From Buxus sempervirens (lineage: Eukaryota; Streptophyta; Magnoliopsida; Buxales; Buxaceae): a stretch of DNA of 64,000 bases. A program made the position numbers and the translations under genes. The DNA lies in NCBI GenBank assembly GCA_947561395.2, contig OX387194.1, positions 10,030,048-10,094,047 of the forward strand, given 5' to 3'. Below the pieces are notes generated by a model. The model had not been told where the DNA came from and ran no database searches. It saw only the letters and a list, made by a program, of their open reading frames with translations. Shown here one piece after another: positions 13,542-64,000 of this stretch (positions within the stretch are counted from its first letter, which is position 1; each line of letters starts with the position of its first letter).

Positions 13542-13544
<3 letters not shown>

Positions 13545-13620
<76 letters not shown>
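13545..13620. repeat. (CT)n microsatellite
   Basis: An uninterrupted CT dinucleotide run of about 38 units lies inside the nested solo LTR. It may be polymorphic. Confidence 0.95.
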
Positions 13621-13623
<3 letters not shown>

Positions 13624-16330: not shown

Positions 16331-16577
16331 CAACCAAAACCCCCAAATGCACAAATGCCTTTTTTTTTTTTTTTAAAACCAATGAACCATGAACCACTTG
16401 AACCCAGTTCACTTAAACTTGAACCAACTCCAAATAAACCACTAAACTAACCAATAGCCCATTAAACGAATAACCAAAGGAATTAGTTAAACCAAATGAA
16501 ATTTTTTTTTCCTCTATTGTTCTTTAATAATTTTAATTAATCTTAATTAAAGTTTCTCAAAATTCCAGAATGTTACA

Positions 16578-17258
16578 CAGAGGGCTATGGTCTGATCCCA
16601 CTATAGGATCTTGCCAAAGAATAGCATTGGGAAATTGCGACATCCACTCGGTACTACAAAGGGTCCTGTCAATTTTTTCACTTATCCTACCCCCACCATT
16701 TCAGCCATTGTTCCAAGAAAACTTCATACCTTTAGAAGGGAGGTCAAAAAGATTGCAGTTATTAATGAAATTGTGAAAAAGTTCAGCTTTCCTTACTTGT
16801 ATACTATTTCCACCTCTTTTCTCATGATTGTAGAGGACAACATTGAAATCCCCTATGGCAGCCCATGGAACTACACTTCTTTCAGCAAAATATCTAAGTT
16901 GATTCCATTGTCTTTCTTGCATTTGGATATGTGAACTTGCATGCACAAAGGATAATTCAAAAGATGAATCTGGTCCTTCATAAATCAGCATGTGTATACA
17001 CCACGGCAAGGTGTGCAGGACATCAGCATTGCACGATTGATCCCATAATAACCAGTAACCTTCAGTTCTATTTACAGCAGGGCACCACCAAAAGTTGGGA
17101 TAACTCATCCTTCTTATTTTCTTTTCTGACCTTCGATCATCCATGAGTGTTTCTGATAAAAGCACTAGATTCGGCCTGTAAGTTCGAATAAGATTGCACA
17201 AATGCAATCTTGTCGGGGTTTGGCCAAGGCCCCGACAGTTCCAAGCCATCAGCTTCAT
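16578..17258 (-). pseudogene. LINE ORF2, AP-type endonuclease domain
   Basis: This N-terminal domain of ORF2 nicks target DNA to start reverse transcription. It starts at the ATG at 17258 with MKLMAWNCRGLGQ. It retains the expected catalytic landmarks: the Asn of NCRGL, the Glu of LLSETLMD, GDFN, and SDHSP at the very end. One TGA near 16700 interrupts the frame after KFSWNNG. The domain is cut at 16577 by the nested solo LTR and resumes at 13267. ORF1 ends about 150 bp upstream, the usual LINE arrangement. Confidence 0.88.
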
Positions 17259-17407
17259 CTCTTGCTCCCCAACCGGGGAGGATCAGACAAGGAGGGGAAA
17301 GAAATAGACAAAGCTGAATAGATATCAGCGGGGCTGGATTGACTACAAATCTGGAGGGTAGTCGACTTCCTTTTCTTAATGAGCTGGTAACCCTCCCCAT
17401 CATTCTG

Positions 17408-18395
17408 CTAGTCTGAGTCAGTGCATTCCCCTTCCTGGTGATCTTGAATAGTAATCGGACGAGCTCTGTTTTTAGGGTGGGAGATACCAATGGGCCGACT
17501 ATTACCAAGGGATGGGTGTTTTCTTCTCAAGGTGTTATGGGTGGTGGGATGGGCCTTTGAAATGGGTTGGTTAAGGAAAGGGTTTGGTTTGATTTGGCAG
17601 AGGGTTAGGTGGGGAGAGGCTTTAAAAGAGAATGAAGGGCTTTGATTTGGATCTTGGGCTTGAAACTGAAAAAGAGGTGAGACAAGAAGATTGGCCCCAT
17701 TGCAATTGGACCCATCAAAGCCACTGGCAGAGGACCCAACTTCCCTAACGGTCATAGAGCCGTTAGACCCGAAAATTTCAAACGAATCTTCAGTGTTTGA
17801 CTCGGCTTCTCCAGGCTGCTTGTCAGAAATTGCAGACCTAAGGTCAGAATTCCTCTGCAGATTAGACACCACACCATCTTCATTTTTGGAGGATTCTGGA
17901 AAGAGTTGACTCGGACCATCCTTCTGAGTTGGACTCACTTTCTTCTCCGGCAGCACAGATAACGGATTTCTTCGCTGCGACAGCAGCACTGATAAAGGCG
18001 TATCATATTTCCTGCAATCTGAAGAAGAGTTGTTGCCTTCCTTTCCCACAAAGGGGTTCTGGCAAGCAAGCACAGAGTGCCCAATACAACCACAAGAGAC
18101 ACAAAACAAAGGAAGGTTCTCAAATTTAAAATCAATCCAGATATTTGAGTTAGAACTAACCTCAAAGTATATCCCCGGTGGGATGGCTTTGTTTAACGGG
18201 AGCTTAATTTTTGCCAAAATAAAAGAAGACTTCTGAGCATCATCATTAAGTTCTAAACTCATAGGATCTCCAAATAGCTTTAGACAATCAGTTATGATCT
18301 TCCTGTCTTGAAATTTTTGAGGGATTCCATGGAGTTGCATCCACAAAATGATAGAGTTGAATCTATGGCTTTTGGCATCGTCCTCGGACTCAATG
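17408..18395 (-). pseudogene. LINE ORF1, gag-like zinc-knuckle protein (DUF4283/zf-CCHC_4 type)
   Basis: This is the nucleic-acid-binding ORF1 protein of plant L1 elements. On the minus strand it shows LWMQLHGIPQKFQDRKII, the end of the DUF4283 domain, then IWIDFKFENLPLFC and the knuckle CVSCGCIGHSVLAC. A Ser/Pro-rich low-complexity C-terminal region follows and ends at 17408. The reading frame can be followed upstream to the nested LTR at 18400 and continues after it (21996 to about 22080), but a stop appears there and the normal N-terminal part is missing or degenerate. Confidence 0.75.
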
Positions 18396-19606
18396 GGATC
18401 TGTGTGCGCGTGGGAAACGCGGCACGGGAAAATTCGGAGTCGCCACCGCCTGATGGGGTGCAGGCGGACACCTGGGTGCCTAATCTTGTCTATTAGGGCT
18501 TTTTGGTCTGCGGCTTTGAGATTCTAAGTAGGGTATCGGTTGCGGTCCGGGGAAGTCTGTAGACACCCCGGTCCACCCCGTCGGGTGACAGGTCCCTTAG
18601 GTTTATCCTGGTTAGAGTCAGCTTATTTTGGTCTCACCCGATTCCTAATCCGATATGCAGCTTGGTTGAGTCTGGCGGGACCACCTAAGTGGTGTGGGTC
18701 CCTTTAATTGCTTTTTATCTTGATTAATTAAGTAATCTGAGTCTGGTTGGGTGGGCCCCGTTGGAAGGCCCACGGTGTCCTTGGTGGGCTTAGTCAAGCC
18801 CGTGTGCCCTTGTGGGCCTCGGTCTATCCTAGGAGGCCCTTTGGGCTTTGGTTAAGTGCATTGATTTTACTTTAGGTTCAGATTTGAAGATTAAGTGTTT
18901 TTTATGCACAGGTGGGCCGGATTGGTTTGTGGGCCCCTTTGGTGGGCCCACATGGTGGCCAAGTAATTTTTATTGGATTTATCTTTTTAATCTGCCAAAG
19001 TGAGTTGGACACTGGGCTTGGGTCCCGTAGTCCAAATCTGGGCTTGTAAGCCCAAGTTACTAGAAGTTAGGGTTTGCACCCTTCCTTGGTTCGGTTGGTG
19101 GGGCCCGGTAGGCCCTTGCCCTGGGTCTCGGCCAAATCACGCATTTCATACATCAATTTCACAAGTCCGGTTCGGGCGGACCGCCTTAGGTTTGGCCCGC
19201 CCGGTTTAATCGGTTAATTTTGCTTATCTTGATTAAGCTGCATGCATACATGTTTATTGGGCTGGGTGGGCCCCGTTGGAAGGCCCACTGGAAATCAAGT
19301 TAGACCGGGGGTCCAAGTCCCATGTCGGGTTTCCGGGTGACTCGGAAACCCTGTTGGTTTATCCGGTTCGGTTCAGAAATAGCACTCACATCCAGCAATG
19401 AACACACGAAAAAACACAAGATTGACACTTTGTCAGAAAAAAAATTGGCTCATTGTGCTGGGTCCAAGGGGAGGTACTTGGGGGCCAAGGTACGAGTTGG
19501 ACGCGCAACGAACAAAGGGGGTGGGGGGTTCGCCCCCCGCGGTACGGTAAAGGGCATTTTTGGAATTTTCAAAAAAATAGGGCAATTCGGCAAGTTTTAG
19601 GGGTAT

Positions 19607-21339: not shown

Positions 21340-21870
21340 AAACTTCATCAGCTCATATTTTCTTCATCCGGACTCCGATCTGGGCAAACTTAGTTTCATT
21401 AGAATCGTATCGGAGCCCTCCATCCCATGACCTAGGGGTAGGCCTCTGAATCGGATTTTAGCAGAAAGTCAACTTTTGGCTCTGCTCAAGTTTGACCGCC
21501 CGCAGAACCTTTATCCGGACCCCGATTCCTGCAAACTCAGTTGCGTTGGAACCGTGTCGAGATTCTCCATCCAATGACCTAGGGGTAGGCCTCTGGATCG
21601 GATTTTAGCAGAAAGTCAACTTTTGGCTCTGCTCAAGTTTGACCGTCCGTAGAACCTTCATCCGGACCCCGATTCCTGCAAACTCAGCTGCGTTGGAACC
21701 GTGTCAAGATTCTCTATCCAATGACCTAGGGGTAGGCCTCTGGATCGGATTTTAGCAGAAAGTCAACTTTTGGCTCTGCTCAAGTTTGACCGTCCGCAGA
21801 ACCTTCATCCGGACCCCGATTCCTACAAACTCAGTTGCGTTGGAATCGTGTCAAGATTCTCTATCCAATG
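21340..21870. repeat. 147-bp tandem repeat, about 3.6 copies
   Basis: The marker GACCTAGGGGTAGGCCTCTG recurs at 21429, 21576 and 21723, and TTCATCCGGACCCCGATTCC-type words recur with the same 147-base period. The first unit is diverged; the others are nearly identical. The array lies near the U3 end of the LTR on the minus strand. Confidence 0.9.
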
Positions 21871-22980
21871 GTATAAAGCGAGGGGGCCAATTTTCATCTG
21901 GTCAAAAAGTCAAATTTTCACCCCTTAGGGTTTGACTTTCTGTCCAGGGCTTGCATTTCTTGTTTTTCTGAGAGCGCAAAAATGAGGTGCTTACAGGATC
22001 CATAAGCATAATAGAGGAATTTATGGACCACACCAATTTTAGGAACCATGCATATTTTGGGACCAATTTTATCCCGAACCAATGGGCACCATGACACCCC
22101 TATGACATGAAAATAATGCAAAACAGTAGGATTACCTTGTTACCTTGTTTACCTTCAATATGGCATCCGCATTATGCCCTGGTTTGTAAGCCATGCAAAC
22201 GGCCTTCCCAGAATTACAAACCCATATCCTCACGTAATTGTGTACTTTAGCCAAAAACATGTAACTCCACCTTCAAGCGTAGGGGTTTTGGGTTTTGGCT
22301 TAATGGCAACTTAGCACTCAAGCCTAGTGATGACCAGAATCCCAGATCCACGTTATCATCACATCATTGGCCCAAAGTTCTAAGGTGAATGTTTTCACTT
22401 TCGCTTTCCGAAGTATCGACCTCGTTGCGTCAAGCTACACACATTCGAGTTCAACTTCCTATAGGTTAAGGGTAGGCTGTGTAAAATAAAATGTGCACAG
22501 TGCATTATAAAAATAGGGTGCATTCACAACGTCCCAAACCCTTGCCACTCTTTTCGCAGCCATGCATAAACAAACCAAGGCATAATAGGAAAGCATATTT
22601 AAAATAAACAAGTAAATAAAGCAATCATATAGCACCTAAAACATGCTCATAAAAAATCATCTAATTATGCAAACATATGATCATGTTATACACCCCCAAA
22701 AACACATTATGGAGATCATGCTGAAAATTAAAACATGCTATTATAAAAATATAGCAAGAAATAAGCATGGTTTAGCAAAACGAACCTCCCCTACGCATCA
22801 AAATTAAGCATGTTTCTACCCCCATGAATTCTTAAGCAATAAATCAGATTTAAAACATATCCCATATGCTTAAGAACACAAAACAGCAAGCAAAACAAAG
22901 ACATGCTAAAAACACAAAATAGCAAACAAATCCAAAATATCAAAAACATGAACAAACACCAAAAGGCTCAAATCCACAAG

Positions 22981-34666: not shown

Positions 34667-37600
34667 GTATGTGCTGCATGTGGAATTGCTATTATTCTTT
34701 TGTGCTTTTTGCATATGTATTCCTACATTATAATATGTTTGTATCTTTTTCCTTACTGTTTTTAGTATTTGTATTTATATCCATCCATTTAGCATATTCG
34801 TAGAAGTTATACCCTGACATTAACGTACGTTAACTTTTGTAATTTATTTTTGTTAAGTGACAAAATTAACCTTCTTTAAAATAAAAAATGTTTCACATTT
34901 CTACTTATATATTATCGTCTATTTTCATTTATGTTATATTATTATATTGATTACACTTACATCTTAAGTTATTGATATTAATTTGCTCAATTGATAATTA
35001 TTCATTGAAAATTAAGCTAGCCATACAGTCATTTGGGTATTTAATATTTTTTTTGTCTTATGGAAGGTTACTTTAGTCATTTAATAAAATAGATAACAAA
35101 ACTTAACAGACTTTAACGTCAAGGGTACAATTGTAGTGACCATACTAAATGGAGGGGTATTGTCATAAATATACCGAAAACAAGAGGATTAGATGCAAAT
35201 ATATTATAATATAGGGATATGGAAGCAAAAATCCCTATCCACTTTGTTAACACATATTTCATGTCTGAAATAAAAGACAAGATAAATGTAACAAATAACA
35301 ATTTGTATCTAAATAAATAAAATGAGTACAATCTTCGTGATTCTCCTCTAATTTAATCTCCTTGACAAGTCTTTGCTTCAAGGGCTAAACGAGCTTGATC
35401 ATGAATCAAACTTCAATATTCAATTTGAGGGTTTCAAGAGCTTGATCTCAAACTGGATTTCGATCTTCAATTCAGGGACTGTAAAGCTTGATCTCGAATC
35501 GTATGATCTTCCTTTTTTGTGATGGTGATTTGTCTTCTCTTTTCTCGAAGTATGGATTTGAGAAGATGATGTAGATTTGGCGTAGGCTTGAATGAATTTT
35601 GTCCAAGTCTCTTTGAGTTTCTGCAAAGTGTCTCCAAGTTTTAGGCAAGACTTCTAGAGCTTGAATTTTTCTTTTGATTTCTGCAGAATTTTTCCAAGCT
35701 TTAGGCAAGCTTCTAAAGCTTGGATTTTTTCTTCTTCTTCTCACTGAGGTCCTCTATTTATAGGCAAAGATTATGAGCACTTGCCTTATTTGAGGATTTC
35801 TTTTGATTGAGAGTTTCCCTATAAAGGTGTGTCTTATTTGGCGGCAATTTGAATTAAATGAATCATGCCACACTAAGAGATTCATTTGCTTTGATTTTGG
35901 CATTTTAAATTATTTTTGCCATTTGTGGGGTTGTGACCTTCTTTATTTGGAGTGTCACACCTTGTTATCAATAGGGCTTATTTCTTTTATTTTGGTAATG
36001 TATGTGAACCATGATTTTGGTTTATGAGTTAATAGACTAGATTTGTAGACTTTTTGTGTTGGCCTATATCTTGTAATTTGCGGGTTGAACCATCATTTTT
36101 TTTAACCCAAGCTTCTTCATTCGTAGCTCGGTTAAGCCATAGCTTTGGATTTGGTTTCTTTACCAAAGTCAATTTCTTTGACCCAATCATCCTTTTGACT
36201 TAGGTGACACAAAAAATTTTAGTGTCTACACTCTTATTTTTAATATTTATATTTATACACCCCCCCACCACCAAAAAAAAATTTTGGCATAACCATTGTA
36301 GTTGTATCTCTAATGTTAAAGTCCATTAAATTTTATTGTTTATTTTTATTAAATAAGTAAAGCAACCATCTATAAAATAAAAATATTTTGCATTTATTGT
36401 TCTATATTATAATATATATAATTTTATTTATGTCCTTGTATTATTATATTTATTGCATATAAAATTACCTTAGTCATTTAATAAAATAAACAAAAAAATT
36501 TAATGGAATTTGGCAGTAGGGTATGGTTGCAACAATTATGCTAAACGGAGGGATATAAATACGCATACTAAAAACAAGAGAATATGAATGCAAATATATC
36601 ATAATGTAGGGTATTCATGAAGCCCATTTAATGCAAATATATTTCCATTTATAGAAACCAGGCAGCCTTGTCATTGGTTGAAGATCAACATTATCATTTC
36701 TTACATATAAATAAAAAGATTTAAATGCTACATGGACATGTAGAAATTAAAAAATTCCAAAGTATTTTTTTTTTTTGGCCCACTTTTATTATAGAGTCTT
36801 TGTTGCTTCATCCAGAAAAAGATAACAAGAGAGGTTTCCAAAGAGACTAGATAAAAGCCCATGAGATCTCCTTTATATCTTTAAAAAAAGTACACATACA
36901 TAAACATTGAAAGACACAATGGCATTTAGATGCAAGCTTAGTGTAGACACCCAAAAATTGCACGATTTTTGATAAATCTTGAAGGAGAGAAATATTTTAT
37001 TGAATTTTCAACTCTTAGCATTGGGTTTGAGATCCTTAACCCATTTGAATCCAAAGCCGCAAAGGAAAAGGCCCGAATTCAATCTTTTATGCAAAGTCAA
37101 ACTTTTTCGGGTTGAATTTTGTTGACTTTTGACCCTAGAAAATGAAATATTTTTTAAAGCAAGATTTGAAGATAATTTTTCCCGGTAATTAGGTTTTTAG
37201 CAATGTTATTGCATAAATGAATTTTTTGAGATTTTTAATCTTGATAAATACCTTTGTATCAACATGTTGAATCTTTTTACCGGACCTGAAAAACCGGAAT
37301 TTAGCCTGGAACTGGAAAGTTGACTTTTTATTCACTTGGAATTTGGGTCTGGAAATATTTTTAACGGATTCAAATGGGGGGGTGTTTGCTTATTTACATG
37401 TAATATCTTAAGTAAATGGAGATTAAAAAATACGAGGACATTTACTTAAACGATATTACATGTAAATAAGCCTGGCCTGTGCAGCTAAGGCTCAAAACCA
37501 ACCAAAAATGTGCCAACCGTATTGAGTATACGGTTTTTTATAATTTTGATGTCAACCGCCCTGTATGCACGGTTGCAACCGTATACACAGCACGGTTCAT

Positions 37601-40600
37601 GTCCATGCTCGTTGCGCTGGCGGCCACGTGGCTTCGCGAAGCTTCGGCCGTTGAGCCGCGTGGACAGCACTCAATTAAAGCATAACTGAATTGAACCGTG
37701 CTGTATATGCGGTTCGGTCAACTTTGTAAGAAACCGTACTTTGGGTGACGGTTGTGTAGAAACCGCACTGAGTATACGGTTTTGGCTGTTTCGAGGCTTT
37801 GCGAAATGGCTCGATCTCTGAGCCTTATTTACGCATATTACCTCTCTCTCAGGGACTTGAACTCCCTATTTCACCCTCCGAAACTTGCTGAATTACACCA
37901 ATTCATGCCTTGGAGGAGAATTGGAATAATCTAGAAGGCCTTTTTGGCCTACCCTTGGGACTCTTCTACCCTTGACTTGGCCTATAAATAGAGAGGCCCT
38001 CCTCTTGCAAATGGCTGACAATCTGAAGCTTAGAAGCTCTGCAAGAAGAAGGAGAACCTCTGCTGGATTGGCTACTCAACTGCTCAAGCTACTAAGGTAA
38101 GGCCTATTTGAGTTATTGCTTCCTCTTTAAGTTCTAGCAAATCTCTCATCTTCTACCTTTCTGTAGTATAAGGCCTTTGTGTATTTTTGCAACCCCAAAC
38201 CTCTTCTAAAGTACCTGGGAATCCTCTCTAGCCGTAAAACGTGAAGAGAGAGCCTGGGGAAAAGGAAGGTGGAATGGATCCTCTAGGTTTAGAACCCTCA
38301 AGTGATGAAAAGCATGCTATATGGTTATTTTGAACCCATGAATGCTTCTCTGATTTATTTTTGTATTTGGAGAAGATGTGAATCCATGCTCTCTACAGCC
38401 ATGGATTCTAACTTTCTCATTGAAATGTGATTTTCCACATCTTTGTACCCACTTTTCACTATTTTCATCAAATAGGCTAGATCTTGGGCTTTCCATGTTC
38501 AATATGGAAAATCTGAGGTCCCAGGCCTTAGAATGAACTTCTAGGACTTTATGAGTTTGCTTTTGTTGGATTTTTGAGGTTTTGGTCGAATCCACTTGCA
38601 CACATGCACTGGTTTCCATGTTTCCTCTTCAAAAACTTCAAAACAGGGCAGATCTGTGGCCTGTCTTGGAATGCTTATAACTTCATCCTCCGGATGAATT
38701 TTTGAGTGATTCCAAAGACATGAGATAGATGAGCATGTCTAGTTTATATCTGGAAAATTTCGTCCACTTTTATGTAGCCAATTTTTGACACCATCTCTTC
38801 AAAGTTTGTAAGACAGTTCAGCCCAGATTGCTGAACTTGCCGCTTTGATGGTGCACTATTCGCTCAGTTTTAATCCGTTTCCTATGATTCCAGTTTCTGA
38901 GTTTTCTTTGAGAAGTCTATTTTCATTTCCAACTGGTTTCAGCAGATTTCGATTTGATTTGTGCCTTGGGTACTCAGTTGACTCAGAGATGCTCGCTGGC
39001 ATAGTCCAGAGCTAATCTGTGGTCTTCTAGGCCTGTTCAAGAGAGCACACAAGTCACATCCGGATAGAGTTTGGTGTGAGGTTTATCTCTTTGGAAAGGT
39101 GGCACAACATACTTCTTCCATGCAAATTTTCATGGATTTTTATTGAGCCAAACTCCACGAATAGGACTTTGAAAATGCCTACTCATCACTTTTTCTGAGT
39201 TATAAACAGCAGATTTCAGATATGGATTTCTCTCTCATTTTAAGTCGGATTGAGCTGAATTTTTTACTATATACTCTACTATATACCAGTTTTCAAATGG
39301 CTTTGGTTTCAATGGATTTGAATTTAAATTGAATGAGTTATGGTTAATCGAAGCTTTCAAGCCCTTTTAGCCAGATTTTTCCAAATTTACCTTGAATTGG
39401 TTTTGCTTCAATTTTCACTTTGATTTTTATTCACTCATGAAGTTCTAAGAGGTGATATATCCATGAAGAGAGTTCATATTTATTGGACTACTCATGTGGA
39501 ATAATCACTTACATTTTGCTTACTTTTAAGCAACCTTTGTTTATTTTGATTAGCAAACAATCCTTAGCATAAGCAAACATGTGGTAACCGTCTTAGACGG
39601 ATGAGTGGGGGTGCCTAACACCTTCCCCCGCTCATAAATAATTCCCCGTACCCAATCTCTGGATTTTTCCTCATCTTAGAGCTACTTTGGCTCTATTTGA
39701 CATCTATGAACCTTTTGGTGTCCATTCACACCCTAAGATGAATGGTGGCGACTCTTCACATTTTATTGATCCCCGCGTGACGATATCGGAAGTCATCCGA
39801 GATGACATTTCCATGTCTCACAACTGGCGACTCTGCTGGGGAATTTGTGGAATTGAGCCATGCTTGGATTGCTTGATCATGCTTTGATTGATCTTGTTGA
39901 TTGTTTGCTTTTTTGTTTGTTCATAATAAGTATATTTTGATTTGTGTGCTTCTGTTTGAGAGCATATGAGACCCATGAGAATAGGGTGTGTGATTTCCAT
40001 GCTTGAGTATGTTTAGAACCATGCTTAGGAAGGCCTAACTAGTCTTACCATGCTAGATCACTATGTTTCCATGATAGCATGCTTTGATTTGTGATCAAAT
40101 GTCATGAGCATGAGATCTGAATTCTTTTTGAGAGATGTTTTGAATATGTCAAGCATGCTCACCATAATCAGATGTTATTTTTGTATAACATGATAACATG
40201 CTTTCATGTTTGTATGATTGGGTGAATGCATGTTTAGATTGAGCATGCTAGGTTTTTTTTTATTTACCTTGATGTTTTCATGTTTATCTATCACAAATGA
40301 TCTCTATATCATGCCTTGGTTGTTTTTGGTTTGTGCTTGCATGGCTACGAAAAAAAGAGTGGCAAGGGTGGGACGTTGTGTTGAATGTGACCCATCTTTT
40401 TCAAATGCACTTGTGCACCTTTTTATTTTTTTTACACAGCCTACCTATCACCTATAGGAAGTTGAACAAGAATGTGTGTAGCTTGGCGCACCGAGGTCGT
40501 TACTTCGGAAAGCGAAAGTGAAAACATTCACCTTAGAAGCTTTGAGCCAATGATGTGATGACATGGTGGATCTAGAATTCTGGTCATACACTAGGCTTGA

Positions 40601-43600
40601 GTTCTAAGTTGCCAATAAGCCAAAACCCAAAACCCCTACGCTTGAAGGTGGAGAAACACATTTTTGGCTAAAGTAAACCAAATGCGATGGGAAAAGGGTT
40701 TGTAATGAGGGAAGGCCGTTTTGCATGGCTTAGGTGATCCGAGGTATGATCTAGATACCCATTTTGAAGGTAAACATGAGGCAACAAGGTAATTTCAATT
40801 TCAGTTTTTATGATTGCCTTCATACCATGTAAAGTAATGGTCATGATGTTCATTTGTTGGGATTTTGTTTTTCCCAAAGAATTGCTGTATCCTAGGATTG
40901 GTGTAGCCTATAGGAAGAATTTTAACTCTTCTTAGAGGTCATTCTACCCAAATGTCCATAGGAGGCAACCCAAAGTCCAAATTCCATGCATTGGATGTCC
41001 AATTTTGGTGGGAGCATATTGCCCTCCTTCATGTGAATACTACTAATCCTCTTTTTGCAGGAAAATTGAATGGAAATATCATCCAAGAGGTGCTGGTACG
41101 GAGGCAATCTTTGTAAATAGGATAGGAATTTTGTTTCCTTTTGAAAGCCCAAGAAGGCCAAGTTGTACTTTGGTTTCATGCTCTTGAAGGCAAATTTGTA
41201 TTTCTTTTCTTGTCATTAGTAGGCCTATACTACTGTTGAAGACATGAGAAGGCTCTTTTCTGTACATATTTGTTGTATATTTGTATCAATTGTGCAAGTT
41301 ACATTCAATACATGCATCTTTATAAGCAATTGATGTGTCAAATGCCCAATTTTGGGCAGTCCAGAAGCCACCCAATGGTGAATAATGAGTTTGAACAAGT
41401 AATCAAGCTAATGAAATCAATTGGAAAAGGAAAAAATTCGAAAATCTGATTTCTGGCTTAAAACCGTTCTGAATATGCGGTTTCCTGCATTTTTGTTGCA
41501 ACCGCAGGATATATGCGGTTTGAGCCAAACCGTTCTGAGTGCACGGTTTTAAGCCAAAATTCTGTTTCAGCCTTGCTTATCAAGCATTTCTGGGTCCTTT
41601 CATCCCTAAGTCATACAAGCAAATGGGCAAGGGTTCCAAATAAGATAAATGGCATTTAAACCATTCCAAATTCACCCAAATCAAAGGATTAAGATCATTT
41701 TAAGTAATTTTCACCTAAATTGAACGATTGGCTTAACTAAAAGGTGCAAGTGACGAAGTAAAACTGGTTCAAATCAGAAACCAAGTCAAGCACCTCATTT
41801 TTGGGGTTTTAGTTCATGTAAGGCTTTCTTTACCTAGTTTGAACACTTAACCCATCTTAAGTGAAGTAAATGATTAAAAGAGAATTGGTTCAAATAACCA
41901 ACCTAATCATACTTCAATCTCAAGAATTGAACTTGAAAATCACAATAATTTTCCAAAACATGTTGAGCTTAAAAGTGTAATACAATTCATGAAAGGAAGC
42001 TCAACTCTTTTAAAATGGGGCAAATTCCAATCAAAAATCAATCTTTAAGAAATCTTTAATCATAAAGTGTTCAAACTTTTAAGATTTCTTCCAAAGAGCA
42101 ATTTGTGGGTCACTTGGAAACCTTTGAATTCCAAGCAAATAATCATTCCAAAATTGAATGAAAGAAAAATTTCAAGCAAATCATCTCCTTGAAAGCAATT
42201 TGAGTCTCTTTTTAACTCAAAAACACCAAAGGGGAAACCAAAAATATTTTAGGCATCTGAAAGCCTTGGAATTTCAGAAAATCAAATCATAGGACCCTGG
42301 AAGCCTGAAATTCCAGATTTTTCCAAAAATCTTCATAGGCCTTCTAAAGCCTGAATTTAGAAACTCATAGGACCCTGGAAGCCTGAAATTCCAGAATTTT
42401 TCAAAAATCTTCATAGGCCTTCTAAAGCCTGAATTTAGAAACTCATAGGCCCCTGAAAGCCTGCGTAATTTCAGGAGGTTGTGGAAGCCTTAATTCCAAA
42501 GCATAAGCCATTGGAAGCTTGCGTAATTCCAATTCTTGATTTGTCTATAGGCTTTTACTGTAGGCACATCATCCTTTGTGGGATATGTTGGAAGCCCTAG
42601 AATTTTCCAATATTGGTTAGTCTTTTTCGTACCAACCAATTCATAAGCCATTGGAAACTTGCGTAATTCCAATTCTTGATTTGTCTATAGGCTTTTACTG
42701 TAGGCACATCATCCTTTGTGGGACGTTGGAAGCCCTAGAATATTCCAACAAATCCTTTGGATGGTCTTTTTCATACCAGCCAATTCATAGGCCTCTAGAA
42801 GCCTGAGTAATTCTAGAAACCTTTTTGGGCCGTTTGAAAGCCTCTGAATTTCAAACATCATTTCTTCTAGGCCGTCTATAAGCCTCTGAATTATAGACAC
42901 ATATCTTGGGCCGTCTAAAAGCCTCTGAATTTCAGACACCACCTTTTTGGGCCGTTTGAAAGCCTCTGAATTTCAAACATCATTTCTCTTGGGCCGTCTA
43001 AAAGCCTCTGAATTTTAGACACAACCTTTTTGGGCCGTCTAAAAGCCTCTAAATTTTAGACACCTGCATAAGCCTCTAGAAGCTTGCGTGATTCTAGAAC
43101 CCACTCATAGGATCTCTGAAAGCCTGAAATTTCAGAATTTATCTCTTGGGCCGTCTAAAAGCCTCCGAATTTTAGACACCTCATAGGCCTTCTAAAGCCT
43201 GAATTTAGAAAAATCATAGGACTTCTGAAAGCCTTTAAATTTTGGATCTCGTATCTTGGGCCGTCTAAAAGCCTCTGAATTTTAGACATTTCTCATTCTT
43301 TGGGACCTTTTGGAAGCCCCTAAATTCCATATTCTTTTGGATGGTCATTTGTACCAACCACTTCTTTTTGCAAGGTCAATTTCGACCAAAACAAAACCAA
43401 AAACAAAAAACAAAAAAAAAAAGGGAAAAGAAAGAGTTTAAAAATAAGAAAAAGAAAAGAAAATTTGTAATTCAAACTCATGTTCACCCAAACATGCATA
43501 CATGCATTCTTGAAAGTGTGTGAGTTTAACTTGAAATGTGCACTAATTGTGTTTCTTTTCTTTTCTTTCAAAAGGTTTTCGGCTCCTACCTGCAACCATT

Positions 43601-46600
43601 GCTCCCAGGCGCTCTCAGAGACTAAGATCTGCCACCATGAACCCTATTGAAGAACAATCAATCGTGTCCGCTGAAGCCTTTGCTCAATTACAAGGGCAAG
43701 TGGCAGGGATAACCAAACTACTGGAAAACTTGCTGTCTAATCAAGCAGCCCAAGCCCAGATGCAGGCGCAACAGGCGCAAACCCAAGCCCAGGCTCCAAC
43801 TCAGGTTCACCAAGCCTCATCATCCCACAATGCACCTCCACCCCAGGCCAACATTCTGCCACCAGTTCAACCTATCCCCGAACTTCAACCTGAATTCCAC
43901 CAACCTATCTCAGAGCCCATATTGATTAGGGAGGAGTCAGGGGAATATGAGAAGGAGAAGGAGAAGGAGCGATTGAGGGTGGAAATGGAGAAGAAATTTC
44001 TCGATAGGCTGGAATCAATACATGAAGAGCTGAGAGAAGTCAAGGGGGTCAACACATTTGGGGGCACTAACTTTGAAGATCTGTGCATGTATCCAGATGT
44101 ATGCCTTCCGCCCAAATTCAAGTGCCCAGACTTTGAAAAGTATGATGGCACAGGATGCCCAATGAGCCATCTGAAGCTCTACTGTGGGGCATTATGCCAA
44201 TTTGGGAAGGATGATGGAATCCTAGTCCAACTGTTTCAGAAGAGTCTGACGGGGTCTGCTTTAAGGTGGTTCTCCACTGTGGATCACTCAAGGATTAAGA
44301 AATGGAAAGACTTAGCTGATGCATTCCTGGCACAATACCGGTTTAATTCAGAGATTATTCCTGACCGGTATGATATGATGAGGATGGTGAAGAGAAATGA
44401 TGAAACCATTCGAGAATATGCGAAAAGGTGGAGAGAATCAGCTGCACAAGTGAGGCCACCCATGGGGGAACAAGAAATGATCTCCACTTTTATCACTACA
44501 TTGGGGCAACCTTACTACAATCATTTGGTGGGCCAGACCACCACCAATTTCGCTGCTTTAGTGCAAGTGGCAAACAGGATAGAAGATGGGATCAAGGCTG
44601 GAAGAATAATTGATTACTCTGCAGCGGTGAATCAGCAAGCTTCCACCACTTTTTCTGCACATAAAAAGGAGAATGGTAATGGAAGAAAGAAGAATGAGGA
44701 AAGGAGAGAAACAGAAGTTAATATGGTGCAGCCACCTAGACAACCTTTTCAAATCAATGTCAAGTCCCCCATTCTTACCAAACCCATTCATCCAGCTCCC
44801 TTACCTCCCATTCAAATAAATGTACCTTCAGTACAGCCTGTCAACGAGGAAATGGAAGCAAGGAAGAGAAGGGAGTTTTCAAAACTTCGCATGAAACCAT
44901 CTGAACTCTTACCTACTTTACTTCAGGAGGGGTATGTGACGTTGAAACAGCCAAATCCTCATGCTAGTAAAGGCAAGAACTATGATGAATCGGTGACATG
45001 TGACTTTCACATGGGAACTCCAGGCCATACTACAGATCGTTGTTTGGCTTTAAAGCATGCAATCCAGGATTTGCTGGATAATCATTCTTTATCTTTTAAT
45101 TCAGTCACACCCGCTCCTCACCCCAATGGAAATAATGTGGCAAGCACATCGAATACAGTTGGAGTCATTTCAGTTGAAAGTAGATACTTTGACCCTTCTC
45201 AACTTATTGCTCCTATAGGATCAACTGTCTGGGTTTATTTTGAAAGGGAAGAAGAACAAGAAGCCAATATAGAAAATGGGGCAGAGTCGATTGAGAAAGA
45301 AAGATGGCAGAGAAAGAATGGGGGTGTTTTCAAAGAAAAGAATAAGGCAAAAGTTGAATTCATTTTGCCGCACATTGATTGGGCAGTCATTCAAGTTCCA
45401 AATCAAGTAATGTCGCTTCTTCCAAGGGCTGAGCATGATGTCCTAAATATGAAGACAATTGCTGATCAAAGAAAGGAATTCTTGCCTCAACTAGCAGAAG
45501 GTGAAAATTTTTGCAAAAATGGAGAAAAATCAACTTTTGCCTTTGAGAACAGGGGCAATTTTCGAATTCCCACGTTCTCTGAAAAGAAACCCCCATAAGA
45601 AGAATGCACATTTCCTGAGGATCCTAAGGAGCCTTGTTCTCAGGAAGTGATTTCAATAAAGGCTCTTGAAAAAAATAAATAAATAAATAAATAAGATTTT
45701 TCCCTTAAACATTTTTAGAAGTAAAAAGAAAAAAAAAGTTTTCAACAAGGTCCATTTTACTTATGAGTCATATCTCCCATTAAATTTCATGAAGTTGAAT
45801 ATAACTTCGACATTGGGCTCAATTTCGAGACCAAAATCGAAGAAAGCGACACTCTAAATGAAAATTCAAATCTTTTTAAGTGTCATGAGAAGAATATTTT
45901 GCAAAAATTTTGAAATGACCAATCTTATGGACTTTGGAATCAAAGATGACCCGTAGTTTTCACTTGAAAGCAGCAAGTGCGGAAATTTATTTCATATGGA
46001 TTCAGAGAGGACTGCATCATTTGCTTGTCAAGAAAAAGCAAATGAAGAAGAAACTAAAGGAAGAAATTTTTGACTCTGAAGATGAATCCAACTTTGCACT
46101 CTGCATTGGAAAATATGGAAAGATTTAGTTCCTTGGTTGAGATATGAAGTGCGATTCAGCTACAAAGTCTAATGAAAATGAAGCTTGATTCAAGAGGCTA
46201 ATCTGGTGAGAAGGATGTTTTATGGTTGAGATTTTGTCTTGAAAAAAAAAAAAGAACAAAAAAGAAAAAAAAAAGAAAAGAGAAAAAGGAAAAAAAATCC
46301 TGAGCCAGTCATGTAGTGCAACTCTACCAAGTCTGAAAATTCAGGTTTTTCTTAAAATGATAAGAGGCCTTTTTTTCTTTATCCCCAAAATTTTGAAATC
46401 CCTAGTTAGACCCTTTGAGCTTTATAAATTTTTCCAAATAAACCTAAACTGGGAATTGTAACCCCACACTGGGGCAAATTTATTAAGGCATGAAAGGACA
46501 AATTAAAAAAGAAGGAGGCACTATTGAATTTCAAAATGGATTTTGAGGATATTTTCAGAAAAAAGGGCAAAGAAATAAAGAAAAAGAGAAGAAGAAGAAA

Positions 46601-49600
46601 GATGAAAAAAAAAAGATTATCAAATGCCATGGCATATTTGGAGAATGTCTTCCGAAAGGGGCAATAAAAATTGCAAAGAGAAGAAAAGAAGTTCAATACC
46701 GGGGTGAAAGTTCTAAAGGAAGAAGAACTTCAACACTGGAGACAATTTTGTATTCCAAGGAAAGAAATACCTTAAGAATTACAATCTCAGTTAACCCGTT
46801 TGATCATATGATATTTGAGCCTTTTTATCCCTTTTCTTCTTAAACAAAAACCAAGCCTACATTTCGTCCCATTCATAAGTCCTCTTTGATTAAGAAATTT
46901 TGAATTAAGGCAAATATGACTACATCAGCTTCTGGTAATGAAGGATTAAAAAAAAAATGGAGAAAATGTAGTGAAAACCCGGAAGGGCGCTACATGGCAA
47001 ATGATCAACCATCTGCAAGGAGAAAACCAATGATGTCATATGAGAAGAGAAGTCCCTGATTATCATGAAATATGAGGGAGTTTTCATATCATGGATGCAA
47101 GAAACAACTTTTTCAAGTTGAAGGTCTTTCCAAACCGGGGCAAAATGGTCAGATTGAAAGAGCTGTCATATCTGGAGTATCAATTGACAAGCCAATGGTA
47201 ATGGGAATGATTCTAAAGGTTTCGAAGGCTTATTTTGGTCTTTCTTCATTTTCTGAAATAATCTTCTCATTATTCAACTTGATTTTAATTCTTTTGGACT
47301 ATATGCTAATAAGTGATTGGATCAGTTTTTCAAAAACAAAAGAAAAAACAAAAAAAAAAAAAAAGCAAAAATTATATTTTGGCCTATGATGAGCATCTAT
47401 GTCTTTTCATAAAACAGTGGTTTTACAAGCATTAGAGAATTCTGAGGCCACTAGTATAAAACCTATTTTTTATATGCACTTTTGCATTCTTTTATAAGGA
47501 TTTCTTTTTATAAAATAAAAAAAAAAAAAAAAAAGAAGAGAAGAAAAGAAAAAAGAAAAAAAAAACAAGAAAAAAAAAAAGAGAGAAAAAAATTCATCTT
47601 TGCTGAGGGGTATGTACTTCTTCAAAGCAATCAAGGCCGAAGTATGATCAATTTCCTTTGCTTCTGGGTCCTTAATGAAAGGAGTCATATCATCCTAAAG
47701 ATTGGGCGAGGCCTTCAGATCATAGAAATTTCAAAGCAACAGAATATCTCTTCCTTCAAACAAGAGCCTTTATCTTTCAAATCAAGAAAAGGGCATTCAC
47801 TTGAGCAGTTAAAAAGCATCAAGGCAGGGTATGGGCTACAAAGGCACATACATCATTATTGAGAGAGCAAGAAGAAAAAGCAAAAGCAAATTGCAGAATA
47901 TTCAAGCACAGGATTGGGTATCACATGGCACCCAGGTAAGTCAATAAAAATCAAATCTTGAAAAATTCAATGAAATATTTCCTTCCTTTGTTGAGTTGAA
48001 AAGTGAAAAACATCAAAAGCAATTGAGTTTGCAGAGGTCAATTTTAAATCCACCTTTTTTTTAAAAAAAAATTTGCTTGTCTCAGATTTCTATTCATAGC
48101 CACGAGAGCTCCAAGAAATCTGAGATAAGGAAGAGACGCCACCCCATCAGACTTCTAGCAGGGGTTTCATTGGCTATCTTCAAATCATGTTTTTTTTTTA
48201 TCACTCATTTGTTTGACCAAAGCAAGTTCAACTGATGAGATGTCTTTCAAACGTGCAATTTTTAGTGGTGTCTATTCTTTGCTGTTCATTGTCTTACAAC
48301 TCCAGCAAAGAGGGGCAGTTGTAGACACCCAAAAATTGCACGATTTTTTATAAATCTTGAAGGAGAGAAATATTTTATTGAATTTTCAACTCTTAGCATT
48401 GGGTTTGAGATCCTTAACCCATTTGAATCCAAAGCCGCAAAGGAAAAGGCCCGAATTCAATCTTTTATGCAAAGTCAAACTTTTTCGGGTTGAATTTTGT
48501 TGACTTTTGACCCTAGAAAATGAAATATTTTTTAAAGCAAGATTTGAAGATAATTTTTCCCGGTAATTAGGTTTTTAGCAATGTTATTGCATAAATGAAT
48601 TTTTTGAGATTTTTAATCTTGATAAATACCTTTGTATCAACATGTTGAATCTTTTTACCGGACCTGAAAAACCGGAATTTAGCCTGGAACTGGAAAGTTG
48701 ACTTTTTATTCACTTGGAATTTGGGTCTGGAAATATTTTTAACGGATTCAAATGGGGGGGTGTTTGCTTATTTACATGTAATATCTTAAGTAAATGGAGA
48801 TTAAAAAATACGAGGACATTTACTTAAACGATATTACATGTAAATAAGCCTGGCCTGTGCAGCTAAGGCTCAAAACCAACCAAAAATGTGCCAACCGTAT
48901 TGAGTATACGGTTTTTTATAATTTTGATGTCAACCGCCCTGTATGCACGGTTGCAACCGTATACACAGCACGGTTCATGTCCATGCTCGTTGCGCTGGCG
49001 GCCACGTGGCTTCGCGAAGCTTCGGCCGTTGAGCCGCGTGGACAGCACTCAATTAAAGCATAACTGAATTGAACCGTGCTGTATATGCGGTTCGGTCAAC
49101 TTTGTAAGAAACCGTACTTTGGGTGACGGTTGTGTAGAAACCGCACTGAGTATACGGTTTTGGCTGTTTCGAGGCTTTGCGAAATGGCTCGATCTCTGAG
49201 CCTTATTTACGCATATTACCTCTCTCTCAGGGACTTGAACTCCCTATTTCACCCTCCGAAACTTGCTGAATTACACCAATTCATGCCTTGGAGGAGAATT
49301 GGAATAATCTAGAAGGCCTTTTTGGCCTACCCTTGGGACTCTTCTACCCTTGACTTGGCCTATAAATAGAGAGGCCCTCCTCTTGCAAATGGCTGACAAT
49401 CTGAAGCTTAGAAGCTCTGCAAGAAGAAGGAGAACCTCTGCTGGATTGGCTACTCAACTGCTCAAGCTACTAAGGTAAGGCCTATTTGAGTTATTGCTTC
49501 CTCTTTAAGTTCTAGCAAATCTCTCATCTTCTACCTTTCTGTAGTATAAGGCCTTTGTGTATTTTTGCAACCCCAAACCTCTTCTAAAGTACCTGGGAAT

Positions 49601-52600
49601 CCTCTCTAGCCGTAAAACGTGAAGAGAGAGCCTGGGGAAAAGGAAGGTGGAATGGATCCTCTAGGTTTAGAACCCTCAAGTGATGAAAAGCATGCTATAT
49701 GGTTATTTTGAACCCATGAATGCTTCTCTGATTTATTTTTGTATTTGGAGAAGATGTGAATCCATGCTCTCTACAGCCATGGATTCTAACTTTCTCATTG
49801 AAATGTGATTTTCCACATCTTTGCACCCACTTTTCACTATTTTCATCAAATAGGCTAGATCTTGGGCTTTCCATGTTCAATATGGAAAATCTGAGGTCCC
49901 AGGCCTTAGAATGAACTTCTAGGACTTTATGAGTTTGCTTTTGTTGGATTTTTGAGGTTTTGGTCGAATCCACTTGCACACATGCACTGGTTTCCATGTT
50001 TCCTCTTCAAAAACTTCAAAACAGGGCAGATCTGTGGCCTGTCTTGGAATGCTTATAACTTCATCCTCCGGATGAATTTTTGAGTGATTCCAAAGACATG
50101 AGATAGATGAGCATGTCTAGTTTATATCTGGAAAATTTCGTCCACTTTTATGTAGCCAATTTTTGACACCATCTCTTCAAAGTTTGTAAGACAGTTCAGC
50201 CCAGATTGCTGAACTTGCCGCTTTGATGGTGCACTATTCGCTCAGTTTTAATCCGTTTCCTATGATTCCAGTTTCTGAGTTTTCTTTGAGAAGTCTATTT
50301 TCATTTCCAACTGGTTTCAGCAGATTTCGATTTGATTTGTGCCTTGGGTACTCAGTTGACTCAGAGATGCTCGCTGGCATAGTCCAGAGCTAATCTGTGG
50401 TCTTCTAGGCCTGTTCAAGAGAGCACACAAGTCACATCCGGATAGAGTTTGGTGTAAGGTTTATCTCTTTGGAAAGGTGGCACAACATACTTCTTCCATG
50501 CAAATTTTCATGGATTTTTATTGAGCCAAACTCCACGAATAGGACTTTGAAAATGCCTACTCATCACTTTTTCTGAGTTATAAACAGCAGATTTCAGATA
50601 TGGATTTCTCTCTCATTTTAAGTCGGATTGAGCTGAATTTTTTACTATATACTCTACTATATACCAGTTTTCAAATGGCTTTGGTTTCAATGGATTTGAA
50701 TTTAAATTGAATGAGTTATGGTTAATCGAAGCTTTCAAGCCCTTTTAGCCAGATTTTTCCAAATTTACCTTGAATTGGTTTTGCTTCAATTTTCACTTTG
50801 ATTTTTATTCACTCATGAAGTTCTAAGAGGTGATATATCCATGAAGAGAGTTCATATTTATTGGACTACTCATGTGGAATAATCACTTACATTTTGCTTA
50901 CTTTTAAGCAACCTTTGTTTATTTTGATTAGCAAACAATCCTTAGCATAAGCAAACATGTGGTAACCGTCTTAGACGGATGAGTGGGGGTGTCTAACACC
51001 TTCCCCCGCTCATAAATAATTCCCCGTACCCAATCTCTGGATTTTTCCTCATCTTAGAGCTACTTTGGCTCTATTTGACATCTATGAACCTTTTGGTGTC
51101 CATTCACACCCTAAGATGAATGGTGGCGACTCTTCACATTTTATTGATCCCCGCGTGACGATATCGGAAGTCATCCGAGATGACATTTCCATGTCTCACA
51201 CTTAGCAAATTTGTTAATTAGCCCCCAAAATTTTTCTGAAGAAATCCCATATAAAACACCTAATCCAACTTTATGAAAAAAAAAAAAGGGTTTTTATTAT
51301 TTGGTCAACTAAGATTTAAATTATGTACAGCATGCATAGATCATAACATTAATTAAAAGAAACACATGAAAATTGTAAAATAATAATTTTGAAATTTGAT
51401 CATTTGATGTGATGCAAGCTTAGCAAATTTTGTTAATTAGCCCCCAAAAAAAATTTTTTTTTTTTAAGAAATCCTATATTGATCAACACCTGATCCAACT
51501 TTATTAATTAAAACAGATTTGAAAATTATAAAATAATAATTTTGAATTTTAATCATTTGAAAAACTCTAGTTCAAAAGCTTAAAGTTCTTCCTGTTTCAA
51601 TCTCTTGACCTCATTAGTTTTTACAAAACATGATAATTCATTATAATATATAAATCTACTAATAGACACCATCAACATGCGCCTTTCTAATTTGCCTAAG
51701 AATAGCATAATTTCTTTTGAAACTTTCAAACAAATATTGCTAAGAAGCAAAATCCGTCTATTTTTTTTCCTTATATTCATTTTTACTTTCATTATTTGTA
51801 TTTGATGTAGTATCTTTGTTTCAATGGTTATGATTGTTATTATTGTACGTTACTGTTATATTACAATATTATAATACACAGTAATTAATAAAGGATATAA
51901 TATAATTATAATTTGATATCATTTATTAAAATAATATCATATTATATATTGTATAATATATTTCAACATAAGACAATTCTTTTATCATCGTGATATTATA
52001 ATACTATATATTTATTATTTTATCATGACTTATAATATTATAGTATTTATTAGTATAATATAATAATTATTATATTATATTATACTACTACTATAATATG
52101 AAAATGATAAATATTATAATATTCTTTTTGCATTATAAATCACGAGAGTCTGTGTTTGCTTGCATGTAAATAAGGTACCAACCCATCAGTCTATTGGTTT
52201 TTTAATAAGACACAAACAAAGAAATTTATCAATGAAACACAAACAAAGGAATTAATCTTTAAAACGAAACTACCAAAACTCTGAAAACCTCGCCAGCTGG
52301 GTTACTTACTTATATACAAAGAATGGCCAACCTAGTGAATTTTATTTGGAGGCCCTATCTTTACGTCAACAATAAAGCCCAAGCCCATTGTTGTTGTTCT
52401 ATTTATATAAATTAAAATATTAAATTTTGTTATTTTGAAAAGAAAAAAAGGGGATTCCCGAACTGAACCACGAAGTTATCTTGGGTTGGGGCCAATTGAC
52501 AATGTAAAGATCTATACCATGTTTCCTTCCGTAGAGAGGATCATATTAGCGGATGCATAATTAAGTGGCAGAAAGAAACCAACTGAGAACGATATGAAGA

Positions 52601-59923: not shown

Positions 59924-61173
59924 ATGGCGGTCGGGTATTTCTCTCTTTCCTTGCCTACTCTCTCTGTAGTTTTTGTTGGATGAAGATGCCGTCGTGTTAA
60001 TTTTACAGTAAGAACAAAAGGATTTCGAAGGGAAAGAAGGGAGGAAAGAAGAAAACGTGAGTATGAAACCCTAGATGCTATACTCGAAATATCTCATGCT
60101 CTGTGATTTCTCAATTATTTTCGCGTTTGTGTTTTCGTTTCAGAGTTGATCCTTTTGCCAAGAAGGATTGGTACGATATCAAGGCTCCGTCGATCTTCAA
60201 CGTTCGGAATGTCGGGAAGACCTTGGTTACGAGAACACAGGGAACTAAGGTGTGTACTTTTCTTATTGTCATTTTTTCCGTATTTGATCTGTTTTTCATT
60301 GCTTGTTATTTGGAATTTGTTTTTTTGCTTTTTTCCCATGGTAGCGCCTTGGTTAAGATCAGATCGATTAGAAACCAGAAACCTGTAGATTGCTTCTGAA
60401 GGTCTTAAACACCGAGTGTTTGAGATTTACCTTGCTGACCTTCAAAATGATGAGGATCAGTCTTACAGAAAGATCCGTCCGAGGGCAGAGGATGTACAAG
60501 GGAAGAATGTGCTCACTAACTTCTGGGTGGGGTAACATTAGTATTTTTTTTTTTCCTTCAATTCATTTTACTCATTTTTATTTTAAATTAGCTTTGATTC
60601 ATACTGATAAAATTTTTTTATTCATATCTCCTTTGTTTGAATAATCCAGGGAATGAATTTCACAATAGACAAACTGAGGTCTCTGGTACATAAATGGCAA
60701 ACATTGATTGAGGCTCATGTAGATGTGAAGACAACAGACAACTACGGTTTAAGATTGTTCTGTATTGGATTTACCAAAAGGCGCCCAAACCAGGTTAAGC
60801 GAACCTGTTATGCCCAAACCAGCCAGATACGGCAGGTAGACTTTACATTTACACAACCTTTGGTTACTGAAATACGGCATTTTATGTTCAAAGCAACTAA
60901 GTTATGGAATGAGCTAGTGAAGCATAGGTTTATATATTACAGTCTCTTCTTTGTACATTCACATGCATTTTTAATGTGTTTATCATGCTTTGGGCTCTTT
61001 GTTCTCGGATTCGCTGCAAGATGAGAGAAATCATGATAAACCAAGCAGCATCCTGTGATCTGAAGGAGTTGGTGCAGAAGGCAACCTCAAGTGTCTATCC
61101 TTCGCAGAATGTTTTCATTCGAAAGGTCAAGATATTGAAAGCTCCGAAGTTTGATCTTGGCAAATTAATGGAG
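59924..61173 (+). CDS. RPS3A: 40S ribosomal protein S3a (eS1), shortened copy lacking the last exon
   Basis: This is a small-subunit ribosomal protein. Exons are 59924-59934, 60009-60056, 60144-60249, 60389-60526, 60650-60835 and 61021 (or 61009)-61173, all in frame. Recognisable stretches are [74 protein letters not shown] and [18 protein letters not shown]. Two oddities are seen. The expected acceptor before exon 6 is CGG in place of CAG, so splicing would have to use GCAAG/ATG four codons further on. About 12 residues are also missing between KELVQK and ATSSVYP. The terminal exon is absent, because the sequence leaves the gene at 61331 in the following intron. It is probably a pseudogene or half of a rearranged locus. 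Confidence 0.8.
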
Positions 61174-61331
61174 GTATATATTTCAAGCACTCTTGAGCTC
61201 CATTCTGGTTTTTTCCCACTTTCTAAGTAATTCAAAGCAAGCTTATTCATAAAGATGTATCAGATGCATTGAACTGGTTGTGATATTAGTGTGTCAAATT
61301 TGTTTTGAATGGATTTGTGCTATTACATCAA
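60690..61331 (+). repeat. Inverted duplication, left arm (642 bp)
   Basis: Every stretch compared is the exact reverse complement of 63359-64000 (positions sum to 124690, no indel). It covers RPS3A exons 5 and 6 and introns. Confidence 0.9.
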
Positions 61332-62894: not shown

Positions 62895-64000
62895 CTATGC
62901 TCCAATCACTTCAGTCTCCCCCTCTGCCACTGGTTCCTCAGCTGGCCTCTCCATCTTCACACCAACATCTTCAGAGTAATCTCCGTGAACCTACACCCAG
63001 AATAATCCAAAAAAAAAAAAAAATTACCAAAACATAAAGTAGAGCCGACAACTTCCCTCTATATTAATGCTCTTCAAATTTTAGCTACAATTATTGGAAT
63101 TGGGTTCTGAAAAAGTTAAAAGCCATTTTTAATATGGATTTTACAAACTTATACAAGCAATTTCATAGATTTTAACTATTTACCTTTCTGATAAGTACCA
63201 ATACTGATCTGTGGAAGTTTTCAGTTATTTGGTAATAAATAAGTTTATCAGCTTCAGAAACTTATTATAAATTTTTATTTCATTAAATTGATATTGTTGA
63301 GGCCTGAAGATGCATGCAAGCAGGCTTTCTGGTTACCCGAAAATATGTTTTACAAATGTTGATGTAATAGCACAAATCCATTCAAAACAAATTTGACACA
63401 CTAATATCACAACCAGTTCAATGCATCTGATACATCTTTATGAATAAGCTTGCTTTGAATTACTTAGAAAGTGGGAAAAAACCAGAATGGAGCTCAAGAG
63501 TGCTTGAAATATATACCTCCATTAATTTGCCAAGATCAAACTTCGGAGCTTTCAATATCTTGACCTTTCGAATGAAAACATTCTGCGAAGGATAGACACT
63601 TGAGGTTGCCTTCTGCACCAACTCCTTCAGATCACAGGATGCTGCTTGGTTTATCATGATTTCTCTCATCTTGCAGCGAATCCGAGAACAAAGAGCCCAA
63701 AGCATGATAAACACATTAAAAATGCATGTGAATGTACAAAGAAGAGACTGTAATATATAAACCTATGCTTCACTAGCTCATTCCATAACTTAGTTGCTTT
63801 GAACATAAAATGCCGTATTTCAGTAACCAAAGGTTGTGTAAATGTAAAGTCTACCTGCCGTATCTGGCTGGTTTGGGCATAACAGGTTCGCTTAACCTGG
63901 TTTGGGCGCCTTTTGGTAAATCCAATACAGAACAATCTTAAACCGTAGTTGTCTGTTGTCTTCACATCTACATGAGCCTCAATCAATGTTTGCCATTTAT
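62895..64000 (-). CDS. RPS3A: 40S ribosomal protein S3a (eS1), minus-strand copy, runs off the window
   Basis: This is the second copy, with exon 5 (63855-64000, partial), exon 6 (63517-63669 or -63681) and the terminal exon 62895-62990. The terminal exon encodes [20 protein letters not shown] and ends ETEVIGA-stop, the expected S3a C-terminus, after a TAG acceptor. It shares the plus copy's lesions (CGG at the exon 6 acceptor, missing 12-residue stretch), so the duplication is younger than they are. This copy has the 3' end that the plus copy lacks; its 5' end lies beyond the window. Confidence 0.8.
63359..64000 (-). repeat. Inverted duplication, right arm (642 bp, cut by the window end)
   Basis: It mirrors 60690-61331. 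The arm reaches the last base of the window, so the true length is unknown. Confidence 0.9.

Follow-up and report, generated by a model that had tools for sequence, protein, structure and literature searches.

Probable tandem H-type pseudoknots upstream of gag in a Ty3-type retrotransposon lineage of Buxus sempervirens

Introduction

Pseudoknots in tandem have been described in untranslated regions of RNA viruses, and leaders with pseudoknots are known from yeast retrotransposons. The 5' UTR of FMDV, an animal RNA virus, contains two to four putative pseudoknots in a row, their number depending on the strain. According to the accessible part of that report, viruses without any pseudoknot were not viable, infectious virus being recovered only when at least one was present, and in competition replicons with at least two prevailed over those with a smaller number; its authors assign the pseudoknots roles in replication and virion assembly (PMC9203018). 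The upstream pseudoknot domain of tobacco mosaic virus is credited, in the text available to us, with roles in replication and translation (PMC4683447). The 5' leaders of the yeast elements Ty1 and Ty3 contain pseudoknots, and the 5' end of Ty1 carries translation, packaging and priming signals (PMC5454406, PMC4974528, PMC11381356).

The leader analysed here resembles that of FMDV in having several tandem, apparently knotted units of variable number in a long 5' leader (PMC9203018). However, FMDV has two to four knots and is an animal virus, whereas the first family of leaders described below has 11-43 units in a plant retrotransposon, and no relation is claimed. With tobacco mosaic virus it would share consecutive pseudoknots in an untranslated region (PMC4683447), but there they are few and lie in the 3' UTR of an RNA virus, while here they would be many and lie in the leader before gag. 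Ty1 and Ty3 are, like the present element, LTR retrotransposons, although the accessible parts of these papers do not describe repeated knots arranged in an array (PMC5454406, PMC4974528, PMC11381356). A further candidate for comparison, enod40, was set aside as unrelated to the array on the text at hand. Searches of the open-licence PMC literature, by title or abstract start, found no description of a pseudoknot array in a retrotransposon leader, and in the same literature no packaging signal of a plant LTR retrotransposon built as such an array was found. To our knowledge, few packaging signals have been mapped in plant LTR retrotransposons at all.

Results

The host element and its surroundings

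The window, that is, the whole stretch of 64,000 nucleotides that was analysed, is part of a 676.5-Mb assembly. It contains an LTR retrotransposon spanning 36942-51200 and located among LRR genes, with the following features:

36937-36941 and 51201-51205, 5-bp target duplication CTTAG, flanking both LTRs
36942..39822, plus strand, 5' LTR, differing from the 3' LTR at 4/2881 positions
39825..39841, plus strand, primer-binding-site-like sequence TGGCGACTCTGCTGGGG, so called from its position directly 3' of the LTR and not from a tRNA match
43388..43470, plus strand, A-rich stretch between the array and gag, from the sequence
43637..45598, plus strand, gag gene of 653 aa (ATG context GCCACCATGA; Pfam PF03732, E 7.5e-13; open frame 43547-45598)
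48307..48318, plus strand, polypurine-tract-like sequence before the 3' LTR, from the sequence
48320..51200, plus strand, 3' LTR, from comparison of the LTR pair

The near identity of the LTRs, together with CTTAG on both sides, indicates a young insertion. Gag is the sole frame of at least 200 aa within the element, and an open-frame search of the 2.7 kb 3' of gag (45598-48319) found no pol frame. TR-GAG elements are defined as having LTRs and a gag ORF without pol. With its LTRs, primer-site-like sequence, gag ORF and missing pol, the host element answers to this non-autonomous description and resembles TR-GAG elements in that respect, but a structured leader is not described for them in the accessible parts of the sources. 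Having no pol frame, it offers no RT of its own on which membership in the Tat clade could be judged, and it would be placed with that clade only through its relatives. A protein search with Gag gave five matches, the best four being 34-43% identical. In viral contigs, where the window's own genome is possibly excluded, no relative was found by gag or by three unit patterns.

Several other features of the surroundings were recorded. The best 120 matches of the LRR neighbour are 43-55% identical and come from many flowering plants. On the minus strand, 9971-18523 contains open frames that encode reverse transcriptase (PF00078), RVT_3 and a CCHC zinc knuckle and that probably belong to a LINE. 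A tandem repeat with a 147-bp period occupies 21362-21870, its copies being 87-92% identical, and two 642-bp stretches, 60690-61331 and 63359-64000, are identical in inverted orientation. No tRNA genes were found.

Units of the array

A preliminary description of this DNA had reported about 27 stem-loops just upstream of gag, with stems that change on both arms. The array is indeed found there and contains about 26 units; these, however, are probably pseudoknots rather than plain stem-loops. With S1 and S2 denoting the two helices of a unit, the features are:

42107..42135, plus strand, first unit, outside the range previously given (S1 GGGT/ACCT, S2 CTTGGAA/TTCCAAG), of a class also present in other leaders
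42251..43330, plus strand, array of 25 pseudoknot-capable units (S1 3-4 bp, S2 5-9 bp)
42542-42566 and 42682-42706, plus strand, two hairpin-only units without the second helix, from the hairpin scan

From start to start, the 25 units at 42251-43330 are mostly spaced by 29-46 nt, with four gaps of 65-75. A loose hairpin rule applied to 42201-43400 gave 26 hairpins, compared with 15.9 +/- 2.8 (maximum 22) when the sequence was dinucleotide-shuffled 100 times. Because this count is not well set apart from the shuffles it is weak alone, and a stricter rule was needed; on 42101-43340 it gave 26 hairpins, compared with 7.4 +/- 2.1 (maximum 14) over 300 such shuffles. Shuffles equalling the hairpin number, which had been named beforehand as the outcome that would speak against the array, were thus not obtained. 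The 25 units contain 15 distinct pairs of arms with pairing kept, as had been claimed, and the loop variants and arm pairs quoted earlier agree with the sequence. Among 180 arm positions, 175 are Watson-Crick, three G-U and two mismatched.

Two units, at 42505-42533 and 42645-42673, both have ATTGGAA/TTCCAAT, while 79 of the 84 units of their class have C-G at the altered pair; this is a two-sided change with pairing kept, later duplicated. Hairpins of the form TTGGT/ACCAA occur between units in the window. Among 4227 Rfam families there were no matches at gathering score in the window, and none of the weak matches in 42050-43420 was to a pseudoknot or exonuclease-resistant family.

A second helix and the pseudoknot plan

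A feature missed in the preliminary description is that the stem is immediately preceded by a G-rich tract (AGGC, GGGC, AAGC or GGG), which is complementary to the conserved start of the loop (GCCT, GCTT or CCC), so that each unit can be a pseudoknot. AGGC or GGGC pairs with GCCT (GGGC/GCCT having G-U at the first S1 pair), AAGC with GCTT, GGG with CCC and GGGT with ACCT. The resulting order, A-B-A'-B', is the plan of an H-type pseudoknot, in which a unit would consist of the S1 5' arm, an L1 usually of 1 nt, the S2 5' arm, the S1 3' arm, L3 and the S2 3' arm. One nucleotide separates S1 from S2 on the 5' side in 19/25 units, and L3 has 3-7 nt, the last base being A in 24/25. All 25 units have sequences for the two interlocked helices, S1 forming three or more pairs in succession if G-U is included and S2 being 5 bp or longer. 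Speaking against S1, its fourth pair is missing in 8/25 units and its first pair is G-U in 7/25. A strict descriptor of both helices retrieved 21 units, while over 300 shuffles it gave 0.36 on average and never more than 3; a looser one gave 120 plus-strand matches in the whole window, about 20 of them in the array.

In a pseudoknot, a single nucleotide is enough to span six or seven base pairs over the deep groove, but not over the shallow one. Given this geometry, the 1-nt L1 makes the unit plan suit the sense RNA and not its complement. By a rough energy rule, the knot is better than the nested fold in 17/25 units and the nested fold is favoured in 8/25. Considering the unit plan as a whole, it is likely that the array represents tandem H-type pseudoknots in the sense RNA transcribed from a lineage of Ty3-type retrotransposons.

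Distribution among relatives in the genome

A first family of 38 leaders comprises the window's own and 37 of 39 other scored places, all found by similarity to the array, so the presence of arrays in them is no test. These leaders have 11-43 units each; the order of the unit classes is broadly common to them, and units have been duplicated in blocks. The preliminary description had offered, as one alternative, a mechanism that rewrites both arms; since duplicated blocks, drawn from a small number of unit classes, account for the differences between arrays, no such mechanism is needed. In 16 leaders (L030-L045), the fetched stretch holds only the first half of the array, and long gag and pol frames follow downstream in both of the two that were examined. 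The pol-type relative L045/L046 encodes RVT_1, RT_RNaseH, RVT_3 and then integrase (Pfam on L046), the integrase matches lying just under the curated cut-off in a piece cut at its end. We infer that RVT_3 of L046 may be the aRH. L045/L046 thereby has a second RNase H between RH and integrase, as in the Tat clade (Ogre or Retand), where the order RT, RH, second RH and integrase is the described arrangement (PMC6317226). The likeness is limited to this order of pol domains, a structured leader not being mentioned in the accessible text of that source (PMC6317226). L046 also has a G-patch domain (PF01585, E 4e-6; 1501-2961) in the gag-side frame.

Leaders chosen by gag similarity bear on whether the array is peculiar to the host element. 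Six copies at 69-73% gag identity (L048-L053) have 5, 0, 2, 26, 13 and 31 template units, and six matches of a distant gag search (L054-L059) have 34, 18, 31, 22, 16 and 21; for three elements of this second set, gag pieces share 81, 65 and 63% identity with the gag of the window. Arrays of 5-34 units were thus present in 10 of the 12 gag-picked leaders, the two others having 0 and 2 units within the stretch fetched. Seven stretches upstream of other gag matches had no array, with 1, 6, 5, 1, 1, 1 and 2 scattered descriptor matches; they were chosen by position upstream of gag and may not all be true leaders. One unit pattern with four open letters matched the genome exactly at 18,372 places, whereas its reversed control matched nowhere. 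The comparison with leaders of relatives, suggested in the preliminary description, shows that several related elements of this genome have the array, and not one copy alone. Being shared in this way, the array is probably a functional signal in the RNA of these elements.

Covariation and conservation of the helices

Covariation of S2 was significant across units and copies with the tree kept, in line with the earlier claim that pairing rather than sequence is preserved in the stems. Under a tree-aware null, the expected chance counts were 0.000, 0.005 and 0.025 for three S2 pairs in the 25 units, and 0.00 and 0.02 for two S2 pairs in 270 distinct units. For 47 units, RNAalifold, which cannot draw pseudoknots, returned the S2 hairpin only.

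S1 was assessed in several ways. Exchanging S1 3' arms among 20 unit classes, treated as independent in this permutation, gave P 1.5e-5 for Watson-Crick pairing and 1.5e-4 with G-U, and after merging similar classes P 3.5e-5 and 2.6e-4, respectively. In 47 distinct ungapped units of six classes, S1 is paired in 98.4% of cells against 93.3% when shuffled (0/500 as high), and in at most 48.9% when the arms are slid. The two-sided change is at just one of the four S1 pairs, position 2, which in these units is A-U in 23, G-C in 19, G-U in four and otherwise in one. The stem TCTAGAA is found both with AGGC/GCCT and with AAGC/GCTT. Over 981 units from the 38 leaders, position 2 is G-C in 843, A-U in 112, G-U in 14 and otherwise in 12, a count that is biased in favour of S1 because the units were picked by similarity to S1-containing templates (up to 27% mismatch). 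In the TCTGAAA class genome-wide, the double change GAGC/GCTT had five matches and the reversed control none, this being one of the four cells that a comparison would require. In tree-aware tests S1 position 2 ranked high but was not significant, with expected chance counts of 2.3 (25 units) and 7.6 (270 units), so that the case for S1 is built on the class permutation, on conservation and on geometry.

Departures from the class majority in the first family amount to 1.8% in the S1 5' arm and 0.8% in the S1 3' arm, the most conserved part of the unit, to 1.7 and 2.7% in the S2 arms, 4.6% in L3 and 6.9% in L1; the 400 nt before the array have 5.6-6.2%, against 1.7-2.7% in the stems. In the pol-type group, S2 (2.8%) and L3 (2.7%) are equal, with S1 at 0.4%, and in other families S2 (3.1%) and L3 (2.9%) are again equal, with S1 at 1.7%. 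Most copies are probably dead and drifting, which would dilute any signal of selection. A strand test comparing G-U with A-C departures gave 30:17 for S1 and 71:62 for S2 in the first family; it was reversed in other families (S2 19:33, S1 position 2 0:5) and was dropped. As G-U departures do not exceed A-C over all families, they give no pointer to RNA.

The leader outside the array

The leader contains 53 ATG in 39823-41100. By eye, CTAATCCTCTTTTTGCAG at 41043-41060 resembles what we take to be a branch point and 3' splice site, and an mRNA may lack the AUG-rich upstream leader through splicing. The stretch 40338-41028 recurs at 74-79% identity in six leaders from other gag families or copies (among them L048, L055, L057, L058 and L059) and in a minus-strand relative at 22131-22578.

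Other repeated structures were seen in the relatives. Five of six leaders have a perfect hairpin, GCCCGTAT, 5 nt and ATACGGGC, on the 5' side of the array, in sense orientation at the following positions, while that of L059 differs (ACGGGCG/CGCCCGT):

L054, position 1, sense, hairpin GCCCGTAT/ATACGGGC
L055, position 717, sense, same hairpin
L056, position 85, sense, same hairpin
L057, position 575, sense, same hairpin
L058, position 824, sense, same hairpin

In L048, L051, L052 and L053, a second repeated motif, AACC-TTTGGTT-GGTT with a downstream AATCAAA, alternates with GGG-CCC units; it resembles the TTGGT/ACCAA hairpins between units of the window.

Discussion

The best overall explanation, which we put forward tentatively as close to an even call, is that the pseudoknot array acts in cis, as a repeated site on genomic RNA that Gag reads. 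It would entail that RNA is made from the element, that both helices of a unit form together, and that the elements' Gag reads the array for packaging or dimerisation of genomic RNA; this last, functional step, taken by itself, is held with some reserve. It is the analogy with FMDV that favours a repeated Gag binding site. The array sits between the primer site and gag both in the gag-only element and in relatives with pol frames (two examined). In a more specific form, possible but on the doubtful side, a multivalent array of short H-type pseudoknots would serve as a recognition platform for genomic RNA, kept by gag-only relatives that are carried along with coding elements. The knot would then be a conserved, amplifiable module, its geometry constant while unit number and stem sequence vary.

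We think that packaging of genomic RNA is the likeliest function and gag translation the next. In the latter case, the same pseudoknot array would let ribosomes enter at, or skip, the AUG-rich upstream leader, a structured, AUG-poor block preceding the A-rich stretch and a strong start context. The array region 42251-43330 has two ATG where 14 are expected from dinucleotides, compared with the many further upstream, but the scarcity of a single triplet in a repeat array is weak evidence. The ATG context of gag and the A-rich stretch at 43388-43470 would fit a role in translation, and the best 100-nt stretch of the window element is 66% A; that of the pol-type leaders examined, however, is mostly 44-58% A. 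Gag-only and pol-type elements would both express gag, and since the gag-only element also has a gag gene, sharing of the array with pol-type elements cannot separate packaging from translation. Overall, we regard a translational role as rather unlikely.

A different question is whether the units are knotted at all. They could be plain hairpins, in which case the S1 complementarity would merely accompany the conservation of a protein-binding sequence, or S1 and S2 could be alternative folds that do not coexist. This would agree with the tree-aware result for S1, with the nested fold favoured in 8/25 units and with the S2-only RNAalifold consensus, although that program must return such a fold. 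The class permutation, the paired changes at S1 position 2 and the constant A-B-A'-B' spacing argue for the knotted plan instead, and make plain hairpins unlikely.

Functionless, satellite-like tandem growth, in which the paired stems all descend from a single ancestral hairpin, would account for the block-wise variation in copy number (11-43 units) and for leaders composed almost wholly of one unit type (L057). It is very unlikely, considering that many different stems are all paired, that covariation holds in the tree-aware test, that stems diverge less than the neighbouring leader and that the array occupies the same place in several gag families. Least probable of all is that the knots halt a 5'-3' exonuclease or shield the RNA from silencing, an idea prompted only by repetition and compactness and opposed, for the exonuclease, by the Rfam results given above.

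The original observation was right and is more interesting than described, as the unit is probably a pseudoknot. The tandem knots of tested importance in FMDV number two to four, according to the accessible part of that report (PMC9203018), and the array here has roughly ten times as many units. Thousands of near-identical units may matter to repeat annotation. The natural variation in knot number and stem sequence across genomic copies provides a comparative set for the function of tandem knots, and for one lineage of plant LTR retrotransposons the array names a short, testable module.
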